This document shows, in pieces, positions 1,594 through 62,770 of a stretch of DNA of 64,000 nt. The position numbers and the translations under genes are program-made. Position 1 is the stretch's first letter. The number at the start of each line of letters is the position of its first letter. The notes under the pieces are model-generated. The model searched no databases. It saw only the letters and a list, made by a program, of their open reading frames with translations, and had not been told where the DNA came from. Origin of the DNA: Nitrospirae bacterium MYbinv3 (GTDB lineage Bacteria > Nitrospirota > Thermodesulfovibrionia > Thermodesulfovibrionales > Magnetobacteriaceae); NCBI GenBank assembly GCA_002753395.1, contig PEAB01000004.1:1-64000 (forward strand), read 5' to 3'.

Positions 1594-1895
1594 GGTGCGT
1601 CAACCATCACAACACTGTAATCATACATCCTTAAATACCCCTTCCAAATCGGAAGACATTTTCAACTTTGCCCTGGAGACCCTTATAAACAAAGAGCGAT
1701 TTGAGGCATTTGAGAGAACCTCCGGCACTTTCAAAGAGCAATAACGACCCTTAAGTTTATCGCTTACGATAGAAAATAGTCAATACGTACTTCGCCCCCA
1801 ATTTGTCAACCAGCTCTTGTCGGGGTCAAGGTGGCTGTGCTCCATTGCGAGGGGGTCTGAGGGGGAGCAGAGCTCCCCCTTTTCTCTTCTCTTCC
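1594..1895. other. Intergenic stretch with a partial family A element
   Basis: About 300 bases between nuoG-like and the NTase-HEPN gene. The right part (about 1813-1881) is a partial copy of family A: a GGGGTCAAGG core and a strong palindrome GGGGGAGC-AGA-GCTCCCCC at 1861-1879, which could also end the long acs/nuo transcript. No gene is convincing here. A plus-strand reading near 1650-1744 is open but unsupported. Confidence 0.6.
1861..1879 (-). terminator. GC-rich hairpin just past the acs/nuo operon
   Basis: A perfect 8-bp inverted repeat with a 3-nt loop, 17 bp beyond the stop of the last gene of the operon. On the plus strand it is followed by TTTTCTCTTCTC; on the minus strand (the transcribed one) no U-tract follows. 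It is part of a family A element, so its terminator role is uncertain. Confidence 0.35.
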
Positions 1896-15055: not shown

Positions 15056-15161
15056 GGGGCGCATAAGAAAGTCGTGGGGATTAGGAATATTATGATGGGG
15101 TCAAGGGGAGACAGAGTCTCCCCTTCTATTTCCGTAAACCCACGAGTTTCTTATGCGCCCC
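15056..15161. mobile_element. Complete family A MITE-like element
   Basis: 106 bp, with 23-bp terminal inverted repeats differing at one position. Each begins GGGGCGCATAAGAAA and continues TCGTGGG. The interior has the GGGGTCAAGGGGAGAC core and a palindrome AGACAGAGTCT. No coding capacity. This is the cleanest copy and can serve as the type element of family A in this window. Confidence 0.85.
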
Positions 15162-15170
15162 AGTGATTTT

Positions 15171-15205
15171 TTGAAATTGCGTTTAACCTACATCTCTGCT
15201 ATAAT
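15171..15205 (+). promoter_or_regulatory. Extended -10 promoter giving a leaderless Uma2 transcript
   Basis: TATAAT at 15200-15205 preceded by TG at 15197-15198 (extended -10). A weak TTGCGT stands 17 bp upstream and TTGAAA further out. A start site 7 nt after the -10 would be the A of the ATG at 15212, and no Shine-Dalgarno is present. The same design recurs at 55628-55655. Confidence 0.6.
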
Positions 15206-15211
15206 AGATTT

Positions 15212-15733
15212 ATGTTGACACAAACCTTAGAGAGGGATTTTGATCTAACAGAAATTATCAATGGGGAAGAGGTTATGTCGCCAAGCCCTTTTGGAAAGCA
15301 CCAGGATATTAGCCAAAACATAAATAGATTGTTGGTTAATCATGTATACAAAAATAAGTTAGGGAAGGTGTATTATTCCCCTCTTGATGTCATCCTCAAG
15401 GAGGGTGAGCAAAAATTACAGCCTGACCTGTTGTTTATCAAGAATGAGAATATGGCGATCTTTCAAGACTGGATACGGGGTGTTCCTGATATGGTCTGTG
15501 AGATTGTCTCTAAAGGCTCTTATCGGAAGGACACGACAATCAAGAAGCGGGTTTATGAGAGTTACAAAGTGCCGGAGTATTGGATCGTGATACCTGAGCT
15601 TGAGACTATCGAGGTATTGACCATTGAAGGTGACAAGTACGAAACGTTTTCTATTGCAGAAGGTGAGGGCGTTATCAGATCAAAGGTTATCGAGGGTCTG
15701 GATATTGACATAATGGATGTGTTCAAGGAGTAG
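15212..15733 (+). CDS. Uma2-family (DUF820) putative PD-(D/E)XK endonuclease
   Basis: 173 residues, usual for Uma2 proteins. Family hallmarks are MSPSPFGKHQDISQNI, then QPDLLFI, PDMVCEIVSKGS and KRVYESYKVPEYWIV. The Asp of QPD and the Glu of CEIVS correspond to restriction-fold catalytic residues. Function in bacteria is unclear; members spread widely in genomes with many repeats. Probably translated from a leaderless mRNA, as no ribosome site is seen. Confidence 0.85.
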   Translation: MLTQTLERDFDLTEIINGEEVMSPSPFGKHQDISQNINRLLVNHVYKNKLGKVYYSPLDVILKEGEQKLQPDLLFIKNENMAIFQDWIRGVPDMVCEIVSKGSYRKDTTIKKRVYESYKVPEYWIVIPELETIEVLTIEGDKYETFSIAEGEGVIRSKVIEGLDIDIMDVFKE

Positions 15734-16151: not shown

Positions 16152-16433
16152 AGAGGCGTTATTGACTCTAAGGATGGCGGGTAAAGACCTTCGGGCGCTT
16201 AATGTAATGCTCGCACCCGATTCGGTTGACGATGAAATCTTTGGTTTTCATGCCCAGCAGGCTGTTGAAAAATCGCTTAAGGCATGAATTACAGCGATTG
16301 GCCATGAGCACGCATATAAGCACGATCTCAAACCCCTGCTTGTTAAACTACAAGACCTTAACTGTGATGTAACTGACCTGTGGAAGTTAATTGACCTGGA
16401 CATATTTGCCGTTCAGTACAGATACGAGGGGAC
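16138..16433 (+). pseudogene. HEPN-domain partner, interrupted by an in-frame TGA and truncated
   Basis: Starts MRGIEEALLTLRMAGKD and reads as the HEPN small subunit of NTase/HEPN pairs (FHAQQAVEKSLKA). At 16285-16287 a TGA replaces what would normally be a Trp codon. The same frame then continues with family-like sequence (HDLKPLLVKLQDL, FAVQYRYEG) to about 16433, where a partial family A element (16429-16484) takes over the 3' end. So the gene carries two lesions: a nonsense codon and loss of the C-terminus. I infer that the toxin half is dead while its antitoxin gene remains open. Confidence 0.75.
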
Positions 16434-16484
16434 GAGTCCCCTTGCGAGAGGGTCTGAGGGGGAAAGACGTTCCCCCTTCTATAC
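16429..16484. repeat. Partial family A element
   Basis: GGGGACGAGTCCCC palindrome, then GGTCTGAGGGGGAA-GACG-TTCCCCC. No terminal repeats. It cuts off the HEPN pseudogene and reaches the 3' end of the Schlafen-type gene. Confidence 0.7.
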
Positions 16485-21065: not shown

Positions 21066-21359
21066 ATCTTTCTCCTTGCAACTTTTTAACGCTCAATACA
21101 ATCTCTTAAAACTAACAGAATGCCCCCCCCCTGTCCAAGCATGGCGAGATCCTCTTTCACTGCGCTGTGAAGATGTAAAAAAAAATAGGGAGGGCTTTGC
21201 CTCTGCCGCAGGGGTTAGCAACCCCCTCCCTAGCCCCACGCACAATGGAACTCGTCCCCTTGACCCCGTAAATGTCAGGCGTGGTTACTTGACTCCGTAA
21301 AGAATCTTAGTTCACATGCTTTTCTTATAGACCTACACCTATTGTTGTCATTTATATCC

Positions 21360-23801: not shown

Positions 23802-23893
23802 TTGTGCGTTGTCCAAAACACTTGACAAGATTGAGTTAATGGGGTCAAGGGGACAGCCATGCGACCTTAGTAAAGTTAGGAGGTAAACACTAT

Positions 23894-26436: not shown

Positions 26437-26505
26437 GAAAAGGTAGGGCTTTGCCCTCCCTCAGACCCTCCCACAAGGGGACCAGTCCCCTTGACCCCAT
26501 CAAAA
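26437..26505. repeat. Family A element between leuS and lptE
   Basis: AGGGCTTTGCCCTCCCTCAG, then CCACAAGGGGACCAGTCCCC, then TTGACCCCAT. It separates two genes that are usually adjacent, and has no stop codon in the lptE frame. Confidence 0.75.
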
Positions 26506-28547: not shown

Positions 28548-28715
28548 GGGTGCATAAAAAGCACATGGGAGTAAAATATTACGGGGTCAAGGGGACGAGT
28601 TCCCTTGTGGGAGGGTCTAAGGGAGGGCAAAGCCCTCCCTATCTTTCATCTTTATAGCCTTAAGTCAACAGCATTAGGTCTGAGGGGGGGCGGAGCGCCC
28701 CCTTCTCTCTCCCTC
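28548..28715. mobile_element. Family A element with the CTTAAGTCAACAGCATTA module
   Basis: Begins GGGTGCATAAAAAGCAC (decayed terminal repeat), then the GGGGTCAAGGGGACGAG core, GGAGGGCAAAGCCCTCC, and at 28659-28680 the 22-bp module shared with four other sites. Ends GGGGGGCGGAGCGCCCCC. Non-coding. Confidence 0.75.
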
Positions 28716-30001: not shown

Positions 30002-30150
30002 TAAAATAGTATCCTCTTTAAAAAACATGGTAAAAATTTTTATGGTTTCAAGACTATAGATTCCCACTTTCGTGGGAATGACTGGAATAGCCGTTTTCCA
30101 AATATGTCATTCCTGTGTAAACAGGAATCCAGAAAGCGCAAAACTACAGA
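30002..30150. mobile_element. Family C element
   Basis: About 150 bp: ATGGTAAAAATTTTTATGGT, then GATTCCCACTTTCGTGGGAA, GCCGTTTTCCAAATATGTCA, then a CCTGT-GTAAACAGG-type hairpin and AATCCAGAAAGC. Two hairpins joined by a conserved spacer. Close copies lie at 40253-40420, 48800-48945, 58110-58312 and 59425-59580. Confidence 0.75.
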
Positions 30151-32511: not shown

Positions 32512-32817
32512 GTATCCATGGGGTTTGCAAGCTCTCCCCTCTGACCTAATGCTGTTGACTTAAGGCAGTGAAGATGAATAATACTAAGTTGCATCCAAAA
32601 AAGTTGAACTTTAATGGGGTCAAGGGGACTGGTCCCCTTGCAGAGAGGTCTGAGGGGAGACAGGGACTCCCCTTCTATACTAATACTGGTATAAACGCAA
32701 CTTGATATAAGGAGGGCTTTGCCTCTGCCGCAGGGGTTCGCAACGCCCTCCCTAGACCCTCCCACAAGGGAACTCGTCCCGTTGGCCCCGTAAATAATCG
32801 TAGTTCCCACGTTTTTC
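32512..32817. other. Element-filled gap in the exopolysaccharide cluster
   Basis: 306 bases almost wholly composed of the 22-bp module (32543-32564), a complete family B element (32586-32703) and a family A element (32704-32827). No gene. The elements lie inside what would otherwise be one operon. Confidence 0.7.
32586..32703. mobile_element. Family B MITE-like element
   Basis: 118 bp. Ends are AAGTTGCATCC and its counterpart ACGCAACTT; inside are GTTGAACTTTAATGGGG, GGGGACTGGTCCCC and TATACTAATACTGGTATAAA. Near-identical copies at 60492-60604 and 62634-62751 in the opposite orientation. Confidence 0.8.
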
Positions 32818-32827
32818 TTATGCACCC
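32704..32827. mobile_element. Family A element reaching into the ligase gene
   Basis: Contains GCCTCTGCCGCAGGGG, the GAACTCGTCCCG and GGCCCCGTAAAT segments, then CCCACGTTTTTCTTATGCACCC, the terminal repeat. That terminal repeat encodes the last codons and the TAA of the O-antigen ligase-like gene. Confidence 0.75.
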
Positions 32828-34248
32828 TCCTTAACATTTTGAGTGCGTACTGCATGTAACGCCACCTGGGAGAGCGCCATAAGCAGCCATATGTACTTTT
32901 GATACACGAAGCTCAAAAACAAATAAAACATTGCCTGTGAGATAAAGGAGATAAGATATGTCTTAGCAAGTAAGGCATGCTCTGAATCCCCCGTTGACAA
33001 GAACTCCCTGATACTCTTACGATAGTTTCTAACAACCAAGCCAAATATTAAGAGGATTGTCAATAGCCCCCCTGCCCCCATGCCTGTCATAATCTCCACA
33101 TAGGAGTTATGAGCATCTCTGTAGTATTCGATATATTCTCGTTCGCCCGTTTCTTCTATGTACGCGGCTACATATTTTGAACGTGCGTATAGTTCGTTAA
33201 AGGTACCAGGTCCTGTACCTACGAGGGGGTTGTGTATAAATGCGTCCCATCCCACGTAAAGGTATGTAAGTCTGCGCGATAAGGATTGGTCAGAGGTTTC
33301 ATAGAGATTTAACTGTCGCTGCCAGAACTTATCTGGTATCGTTACCTTTACTACGATTAAGACTAAAACAAAAAAAAGCAAAAAGAACCCTATCTGTCTT
33401 ATCTTTACCTTATGTCTGTAAATAAGCAGCGAGGCGATGATTATAAAGGTAAAGATCAACACGCCGGCACGTGAATAAGTCAACACCAACGCCCCTAAGT
33501 TTATGCCCAAAAAAAAGAAAGCCATGACCTTTGTCTTGACGTTGTACCTACCAAATAAACGATTAATAATAAAAGGTATCACAAAGATTATCATAGAGGA
33601 AAAAAAGTTGGGATCGTTAGAGAGGCCGACGCCTCGTTCTAAGGTCTTCTCACCGGCGTCCATGACCAAAAGAGGTATCTTGAAGAAATAACCCACGATT
33701 GAAAACAGCGAGGCGATTGAAATGCTCCAGATAAACACGCTTGGCAGGGTTTTTTTGAAATGCTCATCCGTTATAACTGCCAAGGAGAGGAAGAAAAATA
33801 CAAAAACGGTCAACATCTTTCTGACGTCGTTAAAGGCCGTCTCTTGATAATCAGACATCGTTGCAGAGATTAAAGCAAAGAGAAAAAACAAGAAAAATAA
33901 AAACCAAAAGTTAGACTTCAACCTGTTTGCTTCCTGTTTGTATAAAACAAATCTTAAAAACACTATTGATAATAACATTATACCTAAGAATTTTGAGATT
34001 GACAGAAACTTATACGTACTTAACCCCTCTCTAAATATATCAAACGGGATTAAAAATACCATTAAAAAAAGTGCAAGTTGAGGTCTTTTATAAAAAGCAA
34101 AAAGCAAGATTACAACAATAGCAGGCACAAATGCAAACGTGTAATAAGGGGTTATGAAGAGATATAGTATAGATAGAACGACAACAATAAAGAGGGTATT
34201 AGAAAAGAGAGCACCAAAAGTTCTACTAAAAAACTGAGTATTATACAT
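32818..34248 (-). CDS. O-antigen ligase / Wzy-type polymerase family membrane protein
   Basis: 476 residues with about 11-12 hydrophobic helices and a large periplasmic loop near residues 300-370. The family motif is visible: VGTGPGTFNELYARSKY, then EYYRDAHNSYVEIMTGMG. Polymerises or ligates polysaccharide units. Its last residues (EGA, stop) come from the terminal repeat of a family A element, so the natural C-terminus may have been changed. It overlaps the upstream GT2 gene by 8 bp. Confidence 0.85.
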   Translation of the reverse strand: MYNTQFFSRTFGALFSNTLFIVVVLSILYLFITPYYTFAFVPAIVVILLFAFYKRPQLALFLMVFLIPFDIFREGLSTYKFLSISKFLGIMLLSIVFLRFVLYKQEANRLKSNFWFLFFLFFLFALISATMSDYQETAFNDVRKMLTVFVFFFLSLAVITDEHFKKTLPSVFIWSISIASLFSIVGYFFKIPLLVMDAGEKTLERGVGLSNDPNFFSSMIIFVIPFIINRLFGRYNVKTKVMAFFFLGINLGALVLTYSRAGVLIFTFIIIASLLIYRHKVKIRQIGFFLLFFVLVLIVVKVTIPDKFWQRQLNLYETSDQSLSRRLTYLYVGWDAFIHNPLVGTGPGTFNELYARSKYVAAYIEETGEREYIEYYRDAHNSYVEIMTGMGAGGLLTILLIFGLVVRNYRKSIREFLSTGDSEHALLAKTYLISFISQAMFYLFLSFVYQKYIWLLMALSQVALHAVRTQNVKEGA

Positions 34249-38072: not shown

Positions 38073-38294
38073 GGGCGCATAAGAAAGTCGTGGGGATTTT
38101 GGAATAGAATCGAGGGCTTTGCCTCTGCCGCAGGGATTCGCAACCCCCTCCCTCAGACCTAATGCTGTTGACTTAAAGGATATAAAGATGCAAAAAAAAA
38201 GAGAGGGCTTTGCCCTCCCTAGACCCACCCACAAGGGGAGCAGTCCACTTGATCCCCATTAATTTCTATTGTCCCCCATGAAATTTATATGCAC
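38073..38294. mobile_element. Family A element, composite form
   Basis: Left end GGGCGCATAAGAAAGTCGTG, then GCCTCTGCCGCAGGGA, the 22-bp GACCTAATGC module (38156-38177), GAGGGCTTTGCCCTCC, and a decayed right end CCATGAAATTTATATGCAC. Starts 5 bp after the preceding inverted-repeat element. Confidence 0.75.
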
Positions 38295-38434
38295 TCAATT
38301 GCCTCTGGAGTGTGTTAAATTTACGTTCAGCACTACTTGTACAGGACGACCCCCAAGTTTTTTTATTGAAATGTTATGGCCCTCCTAAAAAATGTTACAA
38401 ATTTATCTGCACAATAAGCTAAAATATATGTGGA

Positions 38435-40252: not shown

Positions 40253-40420
40253 GGTGTCTTCTTTAAAAAGCAGGGTAAAAATGTTCATGGTCTCAAGACT
40301 ATGGATTCCCACTCTCGAGGGAATGACAGAAATGACCGTTTTCCAAATATGTCATTCCTGTTTAAGCAGGAATCAAGAAAGCGTAAAAGCATAGTTACCA
40401 TGAAACATAAAAAAGATAAG
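40253..40420. mobile_element. Family C element between kinase and receiver
   Basis: Outer arms CTTCTTTAAAAAGC and CATGAAACATAAAAAAGAT, inner GATTCCCACTCTCGAGGGAA and CATTCCTGTTTAAGCAGGAA hairpins, joined by GACCGTTTTCCAAATATGTC. Almost the whole gap is element. Confidence 0.75.
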
Positions 40421-40428
40421 GTATAAGA

Positions 40429-40804: not shown

Positions 40805-43800
40805 CTATACCCTCTCTAATCCAAATTCTATGGTAAAGATAGAACCTTCACCTGTTGTTTTGGCATATAATTTACCGCCTAAACTCTCCTCAATGATTAT
40901 CTTGGACATATAGAGTCCAATCCCTGTGCCTTTATCGGCCTTAGTGGTAAAGTATAATTCAAACATCTTATCTATAACGTCCTCAGGGATTCCGCCACCG
41001 TTGTCACTTATCTCTACCCTCAGTGTTCTGTCATCTTTAAAACAATCAACTGCAATCATTCCCGCTGTCGTTAACAATCCATTTTCTCTTCTTTCGATAA
41101 TAGCATCCTTTGCGTTTGTTATTAAGTTTAACATAACGTGTGCTAATTGGTTTTTATATGTCGTAATTAAAGTGTCGTTACAAGGCATTATCATAGAACA
41201 ATCTCTGTAAGTCTTGTTATGGATATGGCATGTGAGGCTGTAGGAGATCGAGTTGGTTTTGAACTGCGATGAGAGCATTGAAAATACCTCTGAGGATATT
41301 TCCAGTAAGTCAAAGGTCTCTTTCTTCTTTGAGGGTTTGAAGAAGTTCCTGAATTCATCTATCGTCTTTGACATAAATTCAATCTGTTTCATTGCATTTG
41401 TCACAGTATCATCTATATAATTGGCATCAAGTTCTCCAAATTCATAAGCGTCTTTCAAGTCTTGGATCATAAGGCCAAGACCATTCAAAGGCTGTCTCCA
41501 TTGGTGGGCTATTGCGCCTATCATCTCACCCATTGCGGCCATCTTTGACTGTTGGATGAGAAGCTGTTCTTTACGCCTTATTTCCTCAACTTTATTCTTA
41601 ACTAGTGATTCAAGATTCTCGTTCAGCCGTCTAAGTGTGTAGGTCTTTAATTGTAGCTCCTCCTCTGACGCCTTTAATGCTTCTTCAGCCATCTTCTCAT
41701 CAGTTATATCCCTTGCTATCTCTATCGCCGATGCAATGCTGCCTGAGGCGTCCCTAATTGGTGATGCGATAACACTGAAATAAGCAGTATTGCCGTCATG
41801 TTTTACAACTCTTCTTATGCTTCTATGAATATCGCCATCTTTAAATACTTCACGTACAGGACAGCCATCGCACACTTGATCGTTGTTTTCGTAAACCCTA
41901 TAACAATACTCGCCAATGCGGTCGCCAAAGATGTCTTTTACGACCTGATTTTGATAAGCTATCCTGTAGCTAGTGTCTTGAATCGTCACTCCATCGCCTA
42001 TAGCCATAAGTATGGCCTTGGTTTTTTCATTTTCTGTAAACAACTGATTCTGTATATATTTCATATGGCTGACATCTCGAGCGAGGTGGATTAACCCGTA
42101 GGGCGTTCCATCTGGGTTACGTAAGGGGGTTTTGGTTACCATAAAATATCCGTTTAGACGTTCCTCATATATTTCAATAGTATGTTCTATACCTTCTTCA
42201 ATTAAGTTCTGGTTAGAGCAGATATCCAATGGCTTATCTGTTGAGTGAACAACTTCGTGGCAGATTTTCCCAATTGCCTCTTCTGGGTTTATGTTTAACT
42301 TCTTAGCCATTGTTTCGTTAATTTTCATTATTTTATGATTGCTGTCCAATATCATCAAAAGATCAGGGATAGTATTAAATGTCATTTCCCAGTCATTTTT
42401 TGCCTGGATCAGAGACTGTTCTTTTAACTTAAGTTTAGTAATATCACGTGCAGCAGCAAATATACCTATTACCTTTCCAGTCTCATCCTTGTATACAGAT
42501 GCATTATATAAAACCGGTGTAATGTGTCCATTCCTATGTCTAATAAAAAGTTCGTAATCCTGTACCCTGCCATATTCAAACACTGCTTGATAACCGATTC
42601 TTGCAGTGTCAGGTTCAGTAAAGTAATCGGAGAAATCAGTCCCTATCAATTCATACCGTGAATATCCCGTAACTGTCTCAGTTGCAGTGTTCACGTCGCC
42701 TATTTTACCATAAGTGGTTATCGTTACTAACGGGTCAAGACTCGCCTCTATCAAACTCCTATTGTATAAACTCGATAACTTTAAAGATTCGCTGAGACGT
42801 TTATAGTTAGTGATATCGGTTGCCACACCACATACACCGTAAGGATTTCCATTAACGTCTAATAAAACAAATTTCATAGATATGTACGTGTGTAAACCAT
42901 CGTCATGGGGTACGATCTCCTCAAACTCCATAGGTCTCATACCATTTAATACAGTCATGTCGTTTTCTCTAAAGTTGTCTGCCAACTCCTTTGGAAAGAC
43001 ATCATAATCAGTTTTACCAATGATACCAAATTTGGTTATATGAAAGAGTTCCTCGTATTGACGATTAATCAATAAGTAACGCCCTTCTGTATCTTTTAGA
43101 AAGATAACGGCAGTTGTATTGTCTATTATGGATTGTAATTGTTCTCTGGTTTCTTTTAACTTATCTTCCAATAACTGACGCTCAGTTATATCCCTTACAA
43201 TCTCTAGACACGAGACTATATTTCCGTTGGCATCCCTGATGGGGTTGGCTGTGTTTTCAAAAAATGCAGTTTTTCCGTTAGGCGTTAACACCTTTCTCAC
43301 TGAGGTATGCGACGCCCCGTCTTTGAAAGCCATCTGCACGGGACATCCATCACAAATCTTATCGTTACCTTCAAAAACTTGATAACATTTCTCTCCCAGC
43401 CGCTCACCAAATAAAGATCCAACTTTTTCACTTTGATAAACGATGTTATATTCCAAATCCTGAATGATAACGTCATGTTCCATAGCGTCAATAATAGACT
43501 TAAGTTTATTTCGCTCTGCAGATAACTCTTTATCTACATTTGTGCGTTCTTCGATTTCCCTTTGAAGTGTAGATGTACGTTCTTTAACCAATTCTTCAAT
43601 GTGTTCCTCATACCATATGAGCTCTTCTTTCTCCTGATTACGTAGAAAAATGTTTGCAATCGTACTGGCGGCTATTGTAATGTGTTTTCTGCATGCGTTA
43701 AACACATACTCCGGTCTGGGTGTGTATTGCTTAGATAGTCTAAGCAACTCAACTGGAGATACTTTGTAGATATCAGCTATCTGTCTGATCTTGTTCTCAT

Positions 43801-44239
43801 CGGTAGGCGGGTTTGAAATGCCAGCGTTATTTGAACCGATGACCATGCCATCTGCAATGATTGGAGCGGCGTATATAGCAATACCACCAGAACACTCCAT
43901 TTCAAAAGGTCTTTTTTCCTTTATGCTCTTAAGGCTTGTTGCCCAACAATCTTCATGGCATATCCACTTGCCTGACTTCAGCGCCTCTTCCTCTGAGACG
44001 TTGCTACACAGCCGCATGGACGCCTGATTAAGAAAATCGCACCAGCCGGAGGTGAAAAGACTTACCGCATAATCTCCATTTACCTCATAAATAGAAGCAG
44101 AAGATTCTATATACTGTAAATAGGAATCCTGAATGTCCTTTAACTGTTCTTCACCTATAGCCAGTTTTAAACTGAGGCGTCTTTTAGATGTAAACATCTT
44201 CCTGTCTAGTTCTTTTGCATTGTTTGGCGATATCAACAT
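40805..44239 (-). CDS. PocR-PAS multi-sensor histidine kinase
   Basis: 1144 residues. A PocR-type sensory domain at about 28-190 (LKDIQDSYLQYIESSASIYE, then GWCDFLNQASMRLC), followed by five PAS/PAC units. The first and last share CDGCPV...FKDG cysteine motifs (CYQVFEGNDKICDGCP and CYRVYENNDQVCDGCP). A kinase core follows with GAIAHQWRQPLNGLG (His912), DNGGGIPEDV and GTGIGLYMSK. No transmembrane segments. PocR domains often sense small carbon or aromatic molecules, and the Cys-containing PAS units could bind metal or redox ligands. Likely feeds the adjacent receiver. Confidence 0.88.
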   Translation of the reverse strand: MLISPNNAKELDRKMFTSKRRLSLKLAIGEEQLKDIQDSYLQYIESSASIYEVNGDYAVSLFTSGWCDFLNQASMRLCSNVSEEEALKSGKWICHEDCWATSLKSIKEKRPFEMECSGGIAIYAAPIIADGMVIGSNNAGISNPPTDENKIRQIADIYKVSPVELLRLSKQYTPRPEYVFNACRKHITIAASTIANIFLRNQEKEELIWYEEHIEELVKERTSTLQREIEERTNVDKELSAERNKLKSIIDAMEHDVIIQDLEYNIVYQSEKVGSLFGERLGEKCYQVFEGNDKICDGCPVQMAFKDGASHTSVRKVLTPNGKTAFFENTANPIRDANGNIVSCLEIVRDITERQLLEDKLKETREQLQSIIDNTTAVIFLKDTEGRYLLINRQYEELFHITKFGIIGKTDYDVFPKELADNFRENDMTVLNGMRPMEFEEIVPHDDGLHTYISMKFVLLDVNGNPYGVCGVATDITNYKRLSESLKLSSLYNRSLIEASLDPLVTITTYGKIGDVNTATETVTGYSRYELIGTDFSDYFTEPDTARIGYQAVFEYGRVQDYELFIRHRNGHITPVLYNASVYKDETGKVIGIFAAARDITKLKLKEQSLIQAKNDWEMTFNTIPDLLMILDSNHKIMKINETMAKKLNINPEEAIGKICHEVVHSTDKPLDICSNQNLIEEGIEHTIEIYEERLNGYFMVTKTPLRNPDGTPYGLIHLARDVSHMKYIQNQLFTENEKTKAILMAIGDGVTIQDTSYRIAYQNQVVKDIFGDRIGEYCYRVYENNDQVCDGCPVREVFKDGDIHRSIRRVVKHDGNTAYFSVIASPIRDASGSIASAIEIARDITDEKMAEEALKASEEELQLKTYTLRRLNENLESLVKNKVEEIRRKEQLLIQQSKMAAMGEMIGAIAHQWRQPLNGLGLMIQDLKDAYEFGELDANYIDDTVTNAMKQIEFMSKTIDEFRNFFKPSKKKETFDLLEISSEVFSMLSSQFKTNSISYSLTCHIHNKTYRDCSMIMPCNDTLITTYKNQLAHVMLNLITNAKDAIIERRENGLLTTAGMIAVDCFKDDRTLRVEISDNGGGIPEDVIDKMFELYFTTKADKGTGIGLYMSKIIIEESLGGKLYAKTTGEGSIFTIEFGLERV

Positions 44240-44612
44240 AACTCTATTATATCACATCACTCATAGGTACGTAATTTCTCCCCGTAAATGGGCGCATAAG
44301 AAAGTCGTGGGGTTTGTCAAAGAAGGGGAGGCTCTGCCCACTGTCGCAGGGGTTCGCAACCTCTCCCCTCAGACCTAATGCTGTTGACTTAAGCAATCAT
44401 GCCTGACATTTACGGGGTCAAGGGGACTGGTCCCCTTGTGGGTGGGTCTAGGGAGGGCAAAGCCCACCCTATTCATTTTCACAGCCTTAAGTCAACAGCA
44501 TTACCCCTCAGACCCCTCCGCAAGCGCTACGCTCATTGATCAGTCCACTCCCTACGGTCGATAGGCAGTCCCTTTGACCCCATTAAAGTATGTTTTTGTT
44601 CCCATAAGTTTC
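44240..44612. other. Gap filled by a family A element
   Basis: Except for about 50 bases next to the kinase gene, the whole gap is the element 44290-44624. No gene. Confidence 0.7.
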
Positions 44613-44624
44613 TTATGCGCCCCC
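44290..44624. mobile_element. Large composite family A element
   Basis: 335 bp. Left end GGGCGCATAAGAAAGTCGTG, right end CCCATAAGTTTCTTATGCGC then CCCC. Inside are two oppositely oriented copies of the 22-bp module (44372-44393 and 44486-44503), the GGGGTCAAGGGGACTGGTCC core and GGGAGGGCAAAGCCCACCC. The arrangement suggests nested or duplicated element units. Confidence 0.78.
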
Positions 44625-47060
44625 GTGAATCTTCAACAGACGCCCTCTTAGCCTCTGCGCTGTTATAAGTGCAACAGTCGTTAGCAGACTGACAAGCATT
44701 ATAATTTCCCAAGAGTTGTTTTCAAGTGTCATTATCTCATAAAAGCCTTTGATCTCTCGGATTACAATATTATTGACCTCGACACTCACAAGAGCAAAAT
44801 ACACTAAAAGCATAAAGAAGCTGTATATCAGGTGTTTTATCTTGCTTGTATCAAACCTGTCTATAACCACTGCAAGAAAGTTGGCTATGGAGGCCACAAC
44901 TATTATCGAGAGCATTACCATCTCTGAGTTGTCGTGATTACTATGAAACCTTTTTGTCAGGAAAAAACCGGCATAACCTGACAGCACAATGATATAGGCA
45001 GAAAGGGATACGTAGGACAGAATGTCTACGGTAAAACGCCTGTAGGGAGCCGTGTTTTTATTATTGAGGGCAATCATCACAGAAGGCAGGGTAATGGCAA
45101 AGATGTTAATGAGGGTCACGCGGCGCGGGGTCAGGGGGAATTCCATGTCAAGAAAGATAAACAATAAACTTAGATATATCACCATGAAGTTCTTTGTCAG
45201 CAGGAGCTTTGCAACCATGCTTACCGTGTTTACGATCTTGTTGCCCTCATCGAAGATGGCTGGCAACAGCGAAAAGCGGTTCTCAAGCAAGACAACATCG
45301 GCAACCTCCTTGGTTATGGCGCTGCCCTCCTGCATGGCTATACCCATGTCTGCCTCCTTGATGGCCGGTAGATCGTTTACACCATCCCCTATCATAACGG
45401 TGTAGAGGCCGTTTTGCCGAAGTTCCTTGACGATCCTCGACTTATGATCGGGTTTCAGACGCGCAAAGACCATCTTGTCCCTCACAACCTCGGCAAACCC
45501 GTACTGGTTGAGACCATCAAGCTCCCCACCGGTTACGACATCCTCAGCTCCTACGTCCCAACCTATCTCACGACAAACCGACTGCACGGCCTCTGCGGAG
45601 TCACCTGATAGTATCTTAAACCCTATACCCCTTTCCTCAAACAAACTGAGCGTCTCATAGGCGTCCTCCCGTATCTTATCCGCGATGGATACAATACACA
45701 ACGGTTCTATTTTGGTGCTAGCGCTTAAAAACTCATCCAACTCAGTATCGTTACCTGCAAGCCGGCCAAAGAGGAGGTTTCTGTAGATGCCAAGGCGGTT
45801 GACCACGAATAACTTGCGCGCTACAACTGCGTCTTGGTCCTCCAATCGCTCAACAAGGACGTCGTAGGCACCCAAGATGTAGGTCTCAACGCCAGCGGCA
45901 CAACGCATCCTAAGGATGCTCAACTTCCTGACGGAATTAAAGGGAAGCTCGTCTATCACCTCTATGCCGTGATCTGGTTCGCAGATCTCTAGAGCCTGGA
46001 TGGTGGTGTTTTTGTCCGCCGTGTGGCAGGCGTAAGTGGCCAGGGCTTTTTCGATGGACTCAAGCCCCTTGGCCTCCGTAAGTGACATGATAGCACGGAG
46101 ACTGAGCTTGTTCTGCGTCAGCGTACCGGTCTTGTCCATGCAGATCACGGCCACATTTGAAAAGGACTCCACTGCATTGAGTTTCTGTACGATTGCCCCG
46201 ATCCTGCTTATCCGAAAAACGCCAAGGGCAAAGGCAACTGAGGACATCAACACAAGCCCCTGCGGTATAAGGCCAAGCATTATGGTTGCAACCTGCCTGA
46301 CAAAATCTATCGAAAAAGCCTTCCCTCCCTTCAACATAAACGCAAAGACAACAAGCGCAGCACAGACCACAAACAGGGTCTTTATGATAAAGTTGATCCT
46401 CCTTTGCAGCGGGGTTATGGTAAACTTGTACTTCTTTGCGAGCTTTGTAAACTGAGCGGCATAGCTGTCATAACCGACCTTTACGGCCTTGTAGTACCCG
46501 CAGCCAGAGACACAGAAGCTGCCAGAGAGAAGCTGTTCGCCCGTATTTTTCAATAACGCCACAGATTCGCCAGTCAACAACGACTCGTCTATCTCAAGAC
46601 GGCTTGACTGCAAGACACCTCCGTCCACCACAACCTGATCACCCCGTTGTATACGGATAACATCGTCAATTACAATATCTCTGGCATCAATTGACTGCAT
46701 CATACCATCCCTTAAGACGGACACCTCCCGTTTTAAGAGGAGATTGACCTTATCTAGCGCCTGTTTGGCTCGAATCTCCTGATACACTGCTATTAACGTG
46801 TTTAAAAATGCCACAGAGAACACCCCTATTGAATCAAGCAAGAGCCTGAAGTCGCTGCTCCTGAAGTAGAAAAACACGAGAAATAGTACTACAATGCCTA
46901 TTATAAGATTAAAAACGGAGAATACGTTTTCTAGTATTATATGAGGTACCGTTTTTGTCTTCTTAGAGGCGGGTTTATTGTATAACCCCCTCCTATACCT
47001 CTGCGCTGCCTCCTCCGAGGTAAGACCAACGAGAAGTGGGTCTATCTTATTATCCCCCAT
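44613..47060 (-). CDS. P-type cation-transporting ATPase (CtpE/Ca-type-like)
   Basis: 815 residues, about ten membrane segments. Actuator loop ESLLTGESVALLKN, phosphorylation motif CMDKTGTLTQNKL, hinge GDGVNDLPAIKEADMGIAM, and LIPQGLVLMSS in the fourth membrane segment (PEGL in Ca/Mg pumps). No heavy-metal CPC motif and no N-terminal metal domain, so Ca2+ or Mg2+ is likelier than Cu or Zn. The C-terminal HGGA plus stop is encoded by the terminal repeat of a family A element. Lies 38 bp behind the HEPN gene on the same strand. Confidence 0.88.
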   Translation of the reverse strand: MGDNKIDPLLVGLTSEEAAQRYRRGLYNKPASKKTKTVPHIILENVFSVFNLIIGIVVLFLVFFYFRSSDFRLLLDSIGVFSVAFLNTLIAVYQEIRAKQALDKVNLLLKREVSVLRDGMMQSIDARDIVIDDVIRIQRGDQVVVDGGVLQSSRLEIDESLLTGESVALLKNTGEQLLSGSFCVSGCGYYKAVKVGYDSYAAQFTKLAKKYKFTITPLQRRINFIIKTLFVVCAALVVFAFMLKGGKAFSIDFVRQVATIMLGLIPQGLVLMSSVAFALGVFRISRIGAIVQKLNAVESFSNVAVICMDKTGTLTQNKLSLRAIMSLTEAKGLESIEKALATYACHTADKNTTIQALEICEPDHGIEVIDELPFNSVRKLSILRMRCAAGVETYILGAYDVLVERLEDQDAVVARKLFVVNRLGIYRNLLFGRLAGNDTELDEFLSASTKIEPLCIVSIADKIREDAYETLSLFEERGIGFKILSGDSAEAVQSVCREIGWDVGAEDVVTGGELDGLNQYGFAEVVRDKMVFARLKPDHKSRIVKELRQNGLYTVMIGDGVNDLPAIKEADMGIAMQEGSAITKEVADVVLLENRFSLLPAIFDEGNKIVNTVSMVAKLLLTKNFMVIYLSLLFIFLDMEFPLTPRRVTLINIFAITLPSVMIALNNKNTAPYRRFTVDILSYVSLSAYIIVLSGYAGFFLTKRFHSNHDNSEMVMLSIIVVASIANFLAVVIDRFDTSKIKHLIYSFFMLLVYFALVSVEVNNIVIREIKGFYEIMTLENNSWEIIMLVSLLTTVALITAQRLRGRLLKIHGGA

Positions 47061-48746: not shown

Positions 48747-48799
48747 TTCTTTCTCCTTGTCTAATTTTAGATTGTATTAAATTTAAACAATTTCTGTAT

Positions 48800-48945
48800 C
48801 TTCCTTATATTTCATGGTAATTATACTTTTATGCTTTCTGGATTCCTGTTTACACAGTAATGACATGCTTGAAAAACGGCGATTGTTGTCATTCCCGCGA
48901 AAGCGGGAATCCATAGTCTTGAAGCCATAAAAAAATGGTAGTCCT
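48800..48945. mobile_element. Family C element
   Basis: TTATATTTCATGGTAATTAT and ATGCTTTCTGGATTCCTG, then AACGGCGATTG and a perfect TCATTCCCGCGAAAGCGGGA hairpin, ending GTCTTGAAGCCATA. Reverse orientation to the 30002 copy. Confidence 0.75.
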
Positions 48946-49117: not shown

Positions 49118-50047
49118 TTACGGTGTTTCAAGCGTCTTAAACAAATCATCTACCGAACTAGACTTCTTTATTAGCTCCTTAAACTCCTCCAATTTCTCTA
49201 TGCCTCCAAGATTCCTGACGCTGCCCATAAGCTCACGCCCTTTATCTCCGTACTTGATCTCCAGCATCCCTTCGATCCCTTCTATCAACCCTTCGAGTTT
49301 TCCTTCTATCAACCCCTCAAGTTTTCCCTTACGCTCTCCTTCTTCAAAGGCATATTCTCTGGCCCCTCTCTCATCCTGTAATCTCATCAGCCAATAGTCG
49401 TAGATATCAAGCTCCTCTTTGTTCCACTGCATCTTATTCGCTATATCATACGCCTCCCTTATCTCCATAAAGTCTGCACTCTTGGGTATCGCCTGCAGAG
49501 AACTAGCGTTCTTTATGAAGTGTATCCACTTATCTACAACGCTCTCCAGCTCATCCTCTCTCAGGTTAAACTTGGGCAGCTCTATGAAACTAAATTCAAA
49601 GTCCTTCAACTCTTGCTTAAACGTGTCTTTATTTAGTATCAGATGCCTCGTCAGATACCTGGCGCCTTCAAATATATCAAAGTCCACTATCCCTATATAT
49701 ATCACCTGATTCAACTTGGGATAATCATCGCCCTTCTCTAACTGACTAACATATGCCTTACTCGTATAGTACAGCACACGCTTTTCAAATCCCTTCCGCT
49801 TTTGGAGCTGTATCTCCACTATAAAAGTTACCTTTCTCTTGTCTGTTGCTCTAATGTCTAATATAGTCTCTTTTAATGCCTCTATCTTTGGCGCTTGATA
49901 GGGATTCAGTATCGTTATGTCATCAATCTCTCTATCACCTGTGAGGTCTAATACCGCATTTAAAAAGGATATCAATATCTCCTTCTTGTTTTCATTGCCA
50001 AATACCTTCTTAAATGCTATATCACTTCTTATGTCTACAAACTGCAT
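49118..50047 (-). CDS. Rpn-family recombination-promoting nuclease / PD-(D/E)XK transposase-like protein
   Basis: 309 residues. The N-terminus DIRSDIAFKKVFGNENKKEI is typical of the family. The PD-(D/E)XK core is D64 (ILDIRATDKRKV) and E78-x-Q80 (FIVEIQL), then YYTSKAYVSQLEKGDDY. The C-terminus contains an 8-residue repeat (GKLEGLIE twice), coded by two tandem 24-bp units at 49278-49325. Rpn proteins are nucleases tied to horizontal gene movement and phage defence, and vary in their repeat tails. Marks the island as mobile. Confidence 0.88.
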   Translation of the reverse strand: MQFVDIRSDIAFKKVFGNENKKEILISFLNAVLDLTGDREIDDITILNPYQAPKIEALKETILDIRATDKRKVTFIVEIQLQKRKGFEKRVLYYTSKAYVSQLEKGDDYPKLNQVIYIGIVDFDIFEGARYLTRHLILNKDTFKQELKDFEFSFIELPKFNLREDELESVVDKWIHFIKNASSLQAIPKSADFMEIREAYDIANKMQWNKEELDIYDYWLMRLQDERGAREYAFEEGERKGKLEGLIEGKLEGLIEGIEGMLEIKYGDKGRELMGSVRNLGGIEKLEEFKELIKKSSSVDDLFKTLETP

Positions 50048-50144: not shown

Positions 50145-50240
50145 GGGTGCATAAGAAAAACGTGGGGACAAGAATATTATAATGGGGTCAAGGGGACTGG
50201 TCCCCTTGCAGAGGGGTCTGAGGGGAGACAGAGTCTCCCC
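50145..50240. mobile_element. Family A element (right end lost)
   Basis: Begins GGGTGCATAAGAAAAACGTG, then AATATTATAATGGGGTCAAG, GGACTGGTCCCC and TCTGAGGGGAGACAGAGTCT. The right terminal repeat is missing. It encodes the tail of the small ORF at 50188-50403. Confidence 0.7.
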
Positions 50241-50403
50241 TGCTTTCCTCCTCTTCAAGGTTGACGGTTGAATACAGATGGTAGGCGCAGTCGGGGCCTA
50301 CGAGTTTAACGGCAGCGCAGTAGGGGAGGTTTGACTTGCCCCTCATAACCAGCCTCCTATAAAAGTATTTAAGACGTATCTGTTGTCCTTTCTCCGTTTC
50401 CAT
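50188..50403 (-). CDS. Small hypothetical ORF directly after glgA
   Basis: 71 residues, ATG 3 bp past the glgA stop, with AGGGGA about 10 nt upstream. Begins METEKGQQIRLKYFYRRLVM and has two Cys in the middle (PYCAAVKLVGPDCAYHL). The last 18 or so residues (RGDSVSPQTPLQGDQSP) come from a family A element, so the original C-terminus was probably replaced. I do not recognise the family. Could be a real, truncated gene or chance. Confidence 0.4.
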   Translation of the reverse strand: METEKGQQIRLKYFYRRLVMRGKSNLPYCAAVKLVGPDCAYHLYSTVNLEEEESRGDSVSPQTPLQGDQSP

Positions 50404-55486: not shown

Positions 55487-55609
55487 GGGGCGCATAAGAA
55501 ATTTATGGGAACAAAAACATACTTTAACGGGGTCAAGGGGACTTCTTTGTGGCCGGGGTGCCTCACCCCTCCATTCTATTTCTAAACCTATGAAATTCTT
55601 AAACACCCC
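55487..55609. mobile_element. Family A element between kdsC and the aminotransferase gene
   Basis: Left end GGGGCGCATAAGAAATTTAT, then AACGGGGTCAAGGGGAC and a decayed right end GAAATTCTTAAACACCCC. Ends 40 bp before the -10 box of the next gene, much as the 15056-15161 copy does for Uma2. Confidence 0.72.
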
Positions 55610-55627
55610 TTTTTGTCCATACATATT

Positions 55628-55655
55628 TTGAAAAAAAAATATTTTGTGGTATAAT
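55628..55655 (+). promoter_or_regulatory. Extended -10 promoter giving a leaderless aminotransferase transcript
   Basis: TTGAAA at 55628-55633, 16 bp, TATAAT at 55650-55655 with TG at 55647-55648. Exactly 6 nt separate the -10 box from ATG 55662, so the predicted start site is the A of ATG. No Shine-Dalgarno. Confidence 0.65.
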
Positions 55656-55661
55656 GTCTAC

Positions 55662-56834
55662 ATGTTTAAATTTAATAGGATAAATAGGCTGCCTCCTTAC
55701 GTATTTGCCGTTGTAAACAACCTTAAAAGCGAGGCAAGGAGAAAGGGGGAAGATATAATTGACCTTGGGATGGGTAATCCTGATTTACCCACACCTGAAC
55801 ACATAGTAAGTAAATTACGTGAGGCAGCAAAGAATCCGAAAAATCACAGATATTCAGCATCAAGAGGGATCACCCAACTGAGAATGGCCATGTGTGAGTG
55901 GTACGAGAGAAGATACAACATATCACTTAACCCTGATGAAAACACAGTGGTGACTATCGGCTCCAAAGAGGGCTTGAGCCACCTGATACTTGCGATGATC
56001 GAACCTGGCGACGTGGCGCTTACACCAACGCCCGCCTACCCAATCCACCCATACAGCGTTATTATTGCCGGCGGACAGATTAGAAATATCCCAATAGGCG
56101 CGGGCATAAACTTCTTTGACGAGATGGAAAACGCCTATAAAAATACGTGGCCAAGACCAAAGCTCCTGATACTAAACTTCCCACACAACCCAACTACAGA
56201 GGTCATTGGCGTAGAGTTTTTTGAAAAGGTGGTGGATTTTGCAAAGGAAAACAACCTTATCGTGATCCATGATCTCGCCTATGCAGACCTCGTCTTTGAC
56301 GGTTATAAGGCCCCAAGTCTTCTACAGGTAAAGGGCGCAATAGACGTTGGCGTTGAGTTCTTTTCAATGACCAAGAGCTATTCTATGGCCGGCTGGCGGG
56401 TTGGCTTTTGTACAGGTAACAAGGAGATCGTCGGTGCGCTGACAAAGCTCAAGAGCTACCTTGACTACGGTATGTTTCAACCAATACAGATAGCCTCTAT
56501 CGTTGCCCTAAGAGAGAAACAAGAAATCGTGGAGAAGATCTGTGCCACATATGAAAAGAGAAGAAACGTCCTGATCGACGGTCTACACAAGGCTGGTTGG
56601 ATTGTCCCACCGCCAAAGGCCACGATGTTTGTCTGGGCACAGATACCAGAACGATATAGAAAGATGGGATCGCTTGAGTTCTGTAAGCTCATGCTTATGG
56701 AGGCAAAGGTGGCTGTAGCGCCAGGCATCGGATTTGGCGAGGGAGGCGACGAACACGTACGCTTTGCCCTGGTTGAAAACGAGCATAGGATTAAGCAGGC
56801 CACTAAGGGAATCAGGAGGTTATTAAGCAAATGA
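55662..56834 (+). CDS. Class I/II aminotransferase (AlaC-like)
   Basis: 390 residues from ATG 55662 (the frame extends to 55644 without support). PLP Lys in [26 protein letters not shown], and [16 protein letters not shown] at the start. Close to the alanine/glutamate-pyruvate type, so AlaC-like is the best guess; aspartate or methionine specificity is not excluded. Its stop overlaps the next start (ATGA), which ties it to homoserine dehydrogenase. Transcript probably leaderless. Confidence 0.88.
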
Positions 56835-59412: not shown

Positions 59413-59424
59413 GGCATTTTACGC

Positions 59425-59580
59425 ATCTTCTTTATATTTCATGGTAACTATGCTTTTAAGCTTTATAGATTCCTGCTTCCGCAGGAAGGACATACTTGGA
59501 AAACGGCTATTGCTGTCATTCCTAAGAAAGTGGGAATCCATGTCTTGAAACTATAAAAATAGCATGTTTTTTTAAGAGAA
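59425..59580. mobile_element. Family C element
   Basis: CATCTTCTTTATATTTCATG and GCTTTATAGATTCCTGCTTC, then AAACGGCTATTGCTGTCATT and GGGAATCCATGTCTTGAAAC. Reverse orientation, like the 48800 copy. Fills most of the gap before the amidase. Confidence 0.72.
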
Positions 59581-60491: not shown

Positions 60492-60604
60492 GTTGGATAC
60501 CTGTATTAGTATAGAAGGGGAGACCCTGTCTCCCCTCAGACCCCCTCCGCAAGGGGACCAGTCCCCTTGACCCCATTAAAATTCAACTTTTTTGGATGCA
60601 ACTT
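60492..60604. mobile_element. Family B MITE-like element
   Basis: 113 bp: TTGGATACCTGTATTAGTAT, then GGGGAGACCCTGTCTCCCC, GGGGACCAGTCCCC and TCAACTTTTTTGGATGCAAC. The same as the 62634 copy apart from a few positions. Confidence 0.8.
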
Positions 60605-60639
60605 AATATGACTTGTGAAAAAGACTGATTGAACTCACA

Positions 60640-60720: not shown

Positions 60721-61959
60721 ATGTTTTCAAGGAAGGGTTATCTAATTAAGATGTTTGTACTGTGCTGGGTTATGGTTTTAAGCCTGTCTGTAGCTGAGGC
60801 TGCCACAACCTACACCCTCATGATTACTAAATTAGGCAATGGTTCTGGCACTGTTACGACATCCACTGGGACGATCACGTGGAATGGCTCAGTCGGTACC
60901 GCAACCTACAATACTGGGACACAGGTAACACTGACGGCCACAGCAGATGCCGGTTCTCTATTTACAAACTGGACTGGATGCAGTCCAACTACAACTGCAA
61001 CATGTGTGCTTTTAATGACCTCGAATAAGGATATCACAGTCAACTTTAACCTCAATGCCAGTTCCAGAAAGAGTGACTTCGACGGCGATGGCAAGGGCGA
61101 TATTGTCCTGCAGAACCTAAAGACCGGAGAAACTTACATATGGTTTATGAATGGAACGGTAATCACTAGTGGAGGTGCCCCTGCAACAGTAGCCCTTACA
61201 TGGCAGATAAAGGGTGTCGGAGACCTCGATGGCGATGGTAAAAGCGACATCGTCTTGCAGGACCTCACTACGGGTCAGATTGTTATCTGGCTTATGAACG
61301 GTTACACAATCAAATCTATAGGGTCCCCTGCAACCGTTGACCTCACTTGGCAAATAATGGGAGTGGGTGACCTTGACGGCGACGGTAAAAGCGATATCGT
61401 TTTCCAAAACCTCACAACTGGTCAGATCTACGTCTGGCTGATGAATGGTACAACTATAAAAGACAAGGGTTCACCCGCAACAGTAGAACTTACCTGGATC
61501 ATAAAGGGAGTAGGTGATTTCGATGGCGATGGCAAGAGCGACATTGTATTCCAAAACATGACAACAGGATATGTATATGTATGGCTTATGAACGGTTATA
61601 CAGTATTAGGCGGGGGCTCGCCTGCAACCGTTGATTATCTAACATGGCAGATTAAGGGAGTGGGTGACTTTGACAATGACGGTAAAAACGACATAGTTCT
61701 ACAAAACCTTAAAACAGGACAGATATACATATGGTTTATGAATGGCTATACAGTATCAGGCGGGGGGTCTCCTGCGACCGTTGATTACCTAACATGGCAA
61801 ATTAAAAACGTTAGCGACTATGACGGCAACGGCAAGAGCGATATTGTCTTCCAAAACCTTTATACAGGAGAGGTTTATATCTGGCTTATGAATGGTGCAA
61901 CGGTAGAGATCGGTGCCTCCCCTGCAACCGTCGATTATCAAACATGGCAGATTAAATAG
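60721..61959 (+). CDS. Secreted FG-GAP/VCBS repeat protein with an InlB-type beta domain
   Basis: 412 residues. Signal peptide 1-27 (MFVLCWVMVLSLSVAEA). Residues 30-112 form a domain of the InlB B-repeat type (LGNGSGTVTTSTG, then FTNWTGCSPTTTATC). From about 117 six units of about 49 residues follow, each starting D-x-D-G-D-G-K-x-D-I-V and containing W-x-MNG and SPATVD. The Asp pattern is a calcium-binding loop, and the repeats should form a beta-propeller. Unit DNA is also highly repetitive. Surface or secreted; a role in adhesion or polysaccharide contact is inference. AAGGAG gives a good start. Confidence 0.88.
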   Translation: MFSRKGYLIKMFVLCWVMVLSLSVAEAATTYTLMITKLGNGSGTVTTSTGTITWNGSVGTATYNTGTQVTLTATADAGSLFTNWTGCSPTTTATCVLLMTSNKDITVNFNLNASSRKSDFDGDGKGDIVLQNLKTGETYIWFMNGTVITSGGAPATVALTWQIKGVGDLDGDGKSDIVLQDLTTGQIVIWLMNGYTIKSIGSPATVDLTWQIMGVGDLDGDGKSDIVFQNLTTGQIYVWLMNGTTIKDKGSPATVELTWIIKGVGDFDGDGKSDIVFQNMTTGYVYVWLMNGYTVLGGGSPATVDYLTWQIKGVGDFDNDGKNDIVLQNLKTGQIYIWFMNGYTVSGGGSPATVDYLTWQIKNVSDYDGNGKSDIVFQNLYTGEVYIWLMNGATVEIGASPATVDYQTWQIK

Positions 61960-62412: not shown

Positions 62413-62633
62413 TTTTTCCCTCCAATAACAAGTATCGTCTATTGAGTTAAATCCACTGTATGATTGCAACAGGTATAGATTCCTGTCTTCGCTTGAATGT
62501 CACATAACATAATGACACATACATAACGTAGTAATTACTTAAGCTTTGTTTGCAAGTACTATGCCTTCTTATTACTGTAGAGATAAAGCTATGAAAATGT
62601 TTGCTTTAGCTTAGGCAAACGTTGTAATATACC

Positions 62634-62751
62634 AAGTTGCGTTTATACCAGTATTAGTATAGATGGGGAGACCCTGTCTCCCCTCAGACCCCTCTGCAAG
62701 GGGACCAGTCCCCTTGACCCCATTAAAGTTCAACTTTTTAGGATGAAACTT
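62634..62751. mobile_element. Family B MITE-like element
   Basis: 118 bp: AAGTTGCGTTTATACCAGTA at the left, GGGGAGACCCTGTCTCCCC, GGGGACCAGTCCCC, and TTAGGATGAAACTT at the right. Nearly the reverse complement of 32586-32703. Confidence 0.8.
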
Positions 62752-62770
62752 AGTAATAGACATAAAAATT

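Follow-up and report, generated by a model that had tools for sequence, protein, structure and literature searches.

Family A, the dispersed non-coding repeat typified by the element at 15057-15160 of the window (the whole 64,000-nucleotide stretch of DNA analysed here, C99:1-64000), is in our reading a group of MITEs moved in trans by a transposase of the ISKra4 family (prokaryotic Mutator superfamily, p-MULT 4) with insertion linked to promoters, and we put the probability of this reading at about 0.94. The assignment to MITEs as such is solid: the copies are short DNA with 22-23 bp inverted ends (GGG...CCC) and no transposase gene, which is what defines a MITE. In that sense family A is ordinary: it adds a new, abundant branch of MITEs to a known IS family and obeys the target rule published for it. 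The unusual part is not family A itself, it is a hairpin cassette common to MITEs of different ends.

The genome to which the window belongs (G000) is a 3.71 Mb assembly in 175 contigs. It was compared with 59 relatives, namely three members of the same genus (G001, G002 and the 56% complete G003) and 56 genomes outside it, including G007 from another genus of the same family; gene identity among the species of the genus was ~71-82% in the better matches. Elements were studied in 634 kb of G000, comprising the window and a further 570 kb, and since the sampled contigs had been selected partly for having matches, densities in this sample are inflated.

The first-pass annotation had described a recurrent, internally modular element with 23-bp inverted ends differing by one mismatch at 15056-15161, and this was borne out: 15056-15078 and 15139-15161 are inverted copies of one another at 22 of 23 positions. 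Across the 3.7 Mb of G000 the end GGGCGCATAAGAAANNNNTGGG occurs 397 times with up to three mismatches, against three occurrences of the reversed pattern, which places the genome-wide count far above chance. In the window alone, 20 matches at 15/23 or better stand near the noise of 1-9 found in 20 base-composition shuffles, and eight ends reach at least 19/23 (at 15056, 15139, 32806, 38072, 44289, 44601, 50144 and 55487). The corresponding counts (up to three mismatches) were 22, 39 and 92 in G001, G002 and G003. Beyond the genus, each of the 56 genomes had 0-6, similar to the control counts; family A is thus confined to the genus, with copy number uneven among lineages. Among the named genomes scanned, the exact end was found only in Nitrospirae bacterium nMYbin3, on three contigs.

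Evidence of insertion came from the flanks of 45 paired copies in the 634 kb, one element being entered twice on account of its two right ends. Exact target duplications of at least 7 bp flank 20 of the 45 (ten of 8 bp, eight of 9 bp, one each of 7 and 13 bp), and if one mismatch is allowed, 27 are flanked by duplications of 8 or 9 bp, as compared with means of 0.4 (maximum 3) and 0.5 (maximum 2), respectively, when right flanks were shuffled among elements in 200 trials. Examples are GAAATAGAA at L079:759-891, CTTTGTTCA at L071:13084-13216 and TTTTCTCAG at L073:17905-18027. Among the exact duplications, 18 of 20 have the 8- or 9-bp length of ISKra4-family direct repeats; the 13-bp one falls outside this rule and counts against the assignment. 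No exact duplication was seen in 25 of the 45 elements, including the type element, and in 18 there was none at one mismatch either. Three family A elements have both flanks represented in a relative: for one (L158:3103-3296, duplication TCCACTCAT) G002 has the same place without the element, and at the two others the relative holds the bare cassette. Fixation at the same sites with no sign of insertion, which would speak against mobility, does not describe family A. The two sites with a bare cassette count in part against it, as do some cassettes without family A ends that share their place with relatives. In 22 syntenic intergenic spaces compared between G000 and a relative, too few for statistics, neither side had a cassette in 14; three had family A with its cassette in G000 and a cassette in the same orientation in the relative, three had a cassette in the relative only and two in G000 only. 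The genes beside the element at 55488 are split between contigs in G001, and in G002 and G003 they stand where contigs start.

Family A sits preferentially ~15-16 bp upstream of a -35-like box, as published for the ISKra4 group. With a simple -35/-10 score of our own and a threshold of 9, the 89 flanks (one counted twice) gave peaks at offsets 15 and 16 (11 matches each), where base-composition shuffles averaged 0.26 per offset. At a threshold of 8.4, to which the score was later lowered for counts per element, 28 of 43 distinct elements (29 of 44 rows) had a match at offsets 14-17; for the 29 of 44, seven other 4-base windows gave 3-7 and shuffles 3.5 (maximum 9). The remaining 15 of the 43 had no promoter-like match at these offsets, and at threshold 9 families D, E and C (25, 47 and 36 flanks) had none there. 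In the window, the sigma-70-like promoter next to the type element lies upstream of a Uma2-like ORF (15212-15733), and the element at 44290 has a promoter-like match in its left flank, upstream of the ORF at 40805-44239 (minus strand). In the right flank of the 55488 element the match at offsets 14-17 scores 9.1, and the best match, at offset 19, scores 11.1. According to Guerillot et al. 2014 (PMC3942029), p-MULT elements have ends of 18-39 bp and duplications of 8 or 9 bp, some members of the ISKra4 group keep a constant distance when inserting upstream of sigma-A promoters, and for the related TnGBS group this is 15-17 bp before the -35 box (13-17 in a figure legend); elements with nearly identical ends have promoters on either side. 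Nitrospirae are one of the phyla from which that source reports p-MULT 4 elements. With so many natural, promoter-linked MITE insertions available in a single genome, the ISKra4 targeting rule becomes accessible to study from sequence at the level of single bases.

It had been noted earlier that no transposase with matching ends was visible, which holds for the window and fails for the genus as well as for pieces at contig ends of G000. A full-length candidate is present in G001, where L129:907-2355 is a 1449-bp IS with inverted ends GGGTGCATAAATTTTTGGTGGC and GGGTGCATAAAAAAGTAGTGGC of the same kind as those of family A. Its single ORF encodes 444 aa and matches NF033572 (transpos_ISKra4) with 269.5 bits at a cut-off of 205; the protein had no match in Pfam-A, and no target duplication is visible around this complete IS. 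The G001 and G000 ends have GGGTGCATAA in common, beyond which they are only partly alike. At L127 and L131, shorter elements retain the ends of the G001 IS around other DNA. In G000 itself we found 14 matches to the G001 transposase (47-86% identity), many of them at contig ends, and the exact 22-base end GGGTGCATAAGAAATTCATGGG lies beside eight of these matches (C57, C49, C25, C35, C107, C124, C153 and C84) and also terminates a 133-bp MITE at C53:24856-24988; hence the IS and the MITEs of G000 have an exact end in common, a match that rests on the genome's own broken copies. No intact ISKra4 transposase was found in the G000 assembly, whose contigs end in these repeats: the longest copy (C57) begins at a contig edge and has two in-frame stops, and the remaining copies are short or cut. 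The position of transposase pieces and exact ends at contig edges indicates that the assembly breaks at the IS. As a separate observation, the ISKra4-type transposase copy at L163 (G002:C114) seems interrupted near its start, is cut at its far side, and has an end, GGGTGCATCAAAAATTAAGGGG, unlike the G000 type. As to mechanism, the transposase would recognise the end GGG(C/T)GCATAAGAAAnnnnTGGGG and direct insertion to sites upstream of promoters, which would usually leave the genes beyond with their promoter; the cassette would most likely be a transcription-stopping or transcript-end structure making the insertion tolerable.

The cassette is ~58 bp long and consists of GGGGTC, a stem AAGGGGAC/GTCCCCTT, a linker, GGGTCTGAGGG, a variable second stem (GAGGGAGGGC/GCCCTCCC, GGGGAGGC/GCCTCCCC, GGGGAGAC/GTCTCCCC or longer forms) and a T-rich stretch. 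Its stems are G+C-rich, and as single-stranded DNA it forms two hairpins (z -3.1 to -4.8 in three examples); the whole type element folds as a single strand with z -10.4. The inner content of the 45 copies was scored by the loose motif AAGGGG or CCCCTT and then by eye. The double-hairpin cassette was found in 37, seven of which also carry family E sequence, and of the other eight, seven read as a CATTCCTGC-type hairpin pair and one is a 49-bp remnant. Variation in size, earlier given as 70 to 335 bp, extends to 49-395 bp among the paired copies, because the second hairpin varies, a unit may be missing, the CATTCCTGC-type pair replaces the cassette, or family E inserts. The gain and loss of inner modules proposed at first thus comes down mostly to one cassette with a variable second hairpin, plus a nested element.

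Elements of the window and the cassettes found outside family A are collected in Table 1. Ends had been claimed for ten further places besides the type element. Six of these have them, 28548 in decayed form and 32704 by way of the end at 32806, together with 38073, 44290, 50145 and 55487; the other four (1813, 16429, 21180 and 26437) have no end at 15/23 or better and hold the cassette. The list thus mixed true family A elements with cassettes standing alone or within other end families, and in such genomes the ends and the cargo of repeat families are better defined separately.

Table 1. Family A elements, cassettes and associated features in the window
Feature	Position	Strand	Remarks
Type element, family A (ISKra4-type) MITE, 104 bp, single-unit cassette inside	15057-15160	+	No visible target duplication
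Sigma-70-like promoter, starting 16 bp outside the type element	15177-15205	+	-35 TTGCGT 15177-15182, -10 TATAAT 15200-15205
Family A MITE, 333 bp, family E MITE nested in its cassette	44290-44622	+	Flanks CCGTAAAT / CCGTGAAT, 8 bp, one mismatch
Nested family E MITE, 128 bp, own cassette, inverted ends TAATGCTGTTGACTTAAG	44376-44503	+	11-bp duplication CCCCTCAGACC on both sides
Family A element, right end decayed (38275-38297, 15/23)	38073-38297	.	One family E end and cassette in minus orientation
Family A element, right end decayed (55587-55609, 16/23)	55488-55609	+	Upstream of aminotransferase ORF 55644-56834
Left family A end and cassette 50184-50241	50145-50241	+	Right end not found
Decayed left family A end (16/23) and cassette 28583-28640, then family E end fragment	28548-28640	+	
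Family A end 32806-32828 (19/23) and cassette	32732-32828	-	
Cassette inside end family C (TACTAAGTTGCATCC ... GCAACTTGATA)	32581-32709	+	
Cassette inside end family C	62629-62756	-	
Cassette adjoining partial family C end	60497-60609	-	
Cassette without family A ends, between leucyl-tRNA synthetase ORF and LptE-like ORF	26441-26498	-	
Truncated cassette upstream of leucyl-tRNA synthetase ORF	23838-23853	+	Same place in G002 and G003: full cassette
Cassette with degenerate first hairpin, without family A ends	1822-1879	+	
Cassette without family A ends	16427-16480	+	
Cassette with expanded second hairpin, without family A ends	21185-21271	-	

Besides family A (T), the cassette occurs inside five other end families, one of them of the IS66 type, and also in flanks without known ends. 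Counted as distinct paired elements at a strict cassette threshold, it was present in G000 in 27 of 39 T, 8 of 9 C, 7 of 8 D, 9 of 10 E and 2 of 2 F elements, and in G002 in 6 of 6 F, 3 of 3 G and 0 of 2 T elements; within one end family its distances to the ends are nearly fixed. D ends bound an IS66 element at L090:15571-17009, both ends of which are GTAATAGTTCACC, the first 11 bases being common to D elements. Its broken transposase matches PF03050 in two pieces (50.9 and 44.5 bits, cut-off 23.1), and the elements with the cassette thus belong to two or more unrelated transposase families; D-end pairs at IS-like spacing were L090, which was examined, and L155:548-3141. For families C, E, F and G no autonomous element (800-3000 bp, open stretch of more than 200 codons) was found in the sampled loci, and the coordinates of six T pairs at 800-3000 bp read as spanning neighbouring MITEs. 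One identical 56-bp version of the cassette recurs at 24 places in G000, one in G001, nine in G002 and five in G003, in spite of the ~71-82% gene identity among these species. Of these 39 copies, the 14 in sampled loci lie partly within T, D or F ends and partly in flanks where no known end was recognised; this version was picked for its frequency, by which its identity across species is partly selected and its sharing across ends is not. Its presence in MITEs with other ends, and without known ends, means that the cassette is not derived from the ISKra4 element. Such sharing across unrelated transposases makes it testable why geneless elements become abundant, through good ends or through harmless cargo.

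Nesting adds to this mosaic. Family E comprises 10 paired elements of 105-166 bp, six of them with an exact 11-bp duplication (for example GGTCTGAGGGG, CCCCTCAGACC and GGGGTTAGGGG), and the duplicated sequences show that E has both the cassette itself and another G-rich repeat as targets. The single E end in the element at 38073 is what would be expected if the two cassettes of such a nest had recombined. Another nested element may be represented by a ~66-bp sequence (CACCATGACCTTACGGACACAACAAGCAATGAAA...) which splits the family A end itself at L076:7675-7894 and L158:6378-6595.

The distribution of the first hairpin differs from that of the family A ends. Its counts (up to three mismatches) are 469, 103, 462 and 196 in G000, G001, G002 and G003, and 173 in G007, where family A ends are at background level only; other members of the family have 0-9, the 41 genomes of the order's other families have none, and the reversed control gave 0. 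Some sites are counted on both strands in these figures, the hairpin being nearly palindromic. The cassette may be a transposase-independent passenger with its own spreading route, forming the common cargo of at least six end types and having its stems kept by compensatory change, although the odds are somewhat against this full description. If it is right, the cassette would either hitch-hike on mini-transposons or be a host transcript-end element by which stray IS ends become successful MITEs.

The second of these forms, in which the cassette would be a host gene-end element (a terminator or a transcript-stabilising structure, REP-like in function) captured or exchanged by MITEs through recombination, is possible, at somewhat less than even chances. 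In the leuS-lptE interval a cassette occupies the same place and orientation in all four species of the genus, with stems that differ and still pair by eye. Five genomes supplied 144 first-hairpin sequences, counted once each per genome; pairing is kept in 1231 of 1296 cells (mean 1174, maximum 1184 with shuffled columns), and 47 cells show double changes against a shuffle mean of 5.6 (maximum 13), the shuffle ignoring relatedness and both readings of one palindrome possibly being counted. With genes taken as long, uncurated ORFs, none of the 59 G007 cassettes lies between divergent genes as compared with 29 of 170 intergenic spaces (p = 1.5e-4), and 32 of the 59 have a gene end facing the second-hairpin side within 60 bp. 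The T-rich right side and terminator-like calls at three window cassettes (28620-28640, 15105-15121 and 26457-26445) suggest a terminator role, and the mixed element at 38073 may be a chimaera of two nested cassettes; exchange of the cassette among MITEs by recombination would be explained by the hundreds of near-identical copies. These data fit an old gene-end element that MITEs may have redistributed in G000. On the other hand, cassettes are not depleted between divergent genes in G000 (25 of 96 against 56 of 255, p = 0.48) or in G002 (6 of 54 against 24 of 160, p = 0.65). At L214 of G002 one cassette of four is terminator-like and the calls do not exceed those in shuffles (10 against 12.4). 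Cassettes show no significant bias in their orientation to the promoter (14:7, p = 0.19), which thus lends a terminator role no support. Moreover, if capture was by chance, some reason is needed why cassettes should be favoured near the middle in six end families. It should be added that G007 cassettes also form head-to-head pairs with starts ~85 bp apart and an A+T-rich spacer (for example L195:13736 and 13821, L202:10364 and 10448, L207:11558 and 11642), perhaps a pair unit of their own.

Rather unlikely, in our view, is a mobile single-strand hairpin element similar to IS200/IS605 PATEs or REP sequences, which would have inserted beside pentamers of the ATTAT/TTAC type without target duplication, entered each MITE founder once and then been amplified with it. 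PATEs of the IS200/IS605 type have no target duplication, fixed left target bases, subterminal hairpins and an HUH enzyme. In keeping with this, the bases left of GGGGTC in G002 are constrained (A 44, T 41, T 36 and A 48 of 50 at -5, -4, -3 and -2) and those farther out and to the right of TCTT far less so; in G000, TTAC, TAAT or TTAT precedes the cassette in 83 of 103 cases. The same pentamer could, however, be part of the cassette unit. Copies in flanks without recognised ends, and a cassette present in G002 and absent in G000 (L226/L089), would likewise be accounted for. Against it stands the search for the Y1 transposase (PF01797) in eight distinct genomes, which gave no match in G000, G001 and G003 and one fragment with a stop in G002, in spite of the 103-469 first-hairpin counts in these four, and in G007 five matches, four above the cut-off, with a cassette in the same locus in two of the five and not adjacent.

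An origin of family A as a whole as a REP/BIME system moved by a RAYT, to which hundreds of intergenic palindromes and the head-to-head pairs of G007 might point, is highly improbable and was rejected. The ends of family A are classical inverted repeats, target duplications are seen and the partner IS encodes an ISKra4-family transposase; the lack of Y1 matches in G000, G001 and G003 makes a REP system unlikely. That family A represents fixed regulatory or structural RNAs rather than mobile DNA is equally remote: the strong fold and the two sites where a relative has just the bare cassette would suit it, but target duplications, genus-limited and uneven copy number, the G002 site lacking the element of L158:3103-3296, the few places compared, none of which showed these ends at a matching site in different species, and an Rfam scan of the window with 0 matches above the gathering score all oppose it.

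Returning to MITEs moved by an ISKra4-family transposase, family A agrees with the ISKra4 group (p-MULT 4) in transposase model, end length, 8- or 9-bp repeats, promoter distance and near-perfect ends, and differs in being geneless with a hairpin cassette; PMC3942029 describes IS and transposons, and its main text does not use the word MITE. Bacterial MITEs such as those of Thiomargarita (PMC4853749) are similarly short, geneless and numerous, with inverted ends, a duplication and hairpins, and are thought to be moved in trans; here, in contrast, one cassette is common to six end types and insertion is promoter-linked. The Tn3-derived TIMEs (PMC4133298) resemble the present elements in being non-autonomous mosaics with conserved ends and less conserved cores, but they are usually single-copy and have Tn3-type ends, whereas here one core occurs with many end types in hundreds of copies. 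REP/BIME sequences with RAYT (PMC2817692) are also high-copy intergenic palindromes, sometimes paired, unlike the two tandem hairpins found here, carried in MITEs of DDE-type families in a genome (G000) without a Y1 match. Searches of open-access literature gave no report of promoter-targeting ISKra4 MITEs or of one cassette in several MITE families. BOX elements of Streptococcus pneumoniae are modular intergenic hairpin repeats whose modules belong to one family; the likeness lies in the modular intergenic hairpins and the difference in ends that come here from different transposase families.

Several minor observations concern the surroundings of these elements. The P-type ATPase-like ORF at 44613-47060 (minus strand) has its stop codon supplied by the right family A end at 44601-44622, and the insertion may therefore have altered the C-terminus of this ORF. 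Near the family A end at 50145 lies an ORF (49118-50047, minus strand) for a Rpn family recombination-promoting nuclease/putative transposase (TIGR01784). The ORF at 60721-61959 contains six tandem repeats of 147/150 bp and has no NCBIfam match. The window also holds another dispersed repeat of ~135-147 bp with CATTCCTG...CAGGAATG hairpins, at 40254-40428, 30009-30143, 48788-48931 and 59415-59541; its copy at ~40260-40428 is missing at the same place in G002 and G003 and so looks like an insertion.
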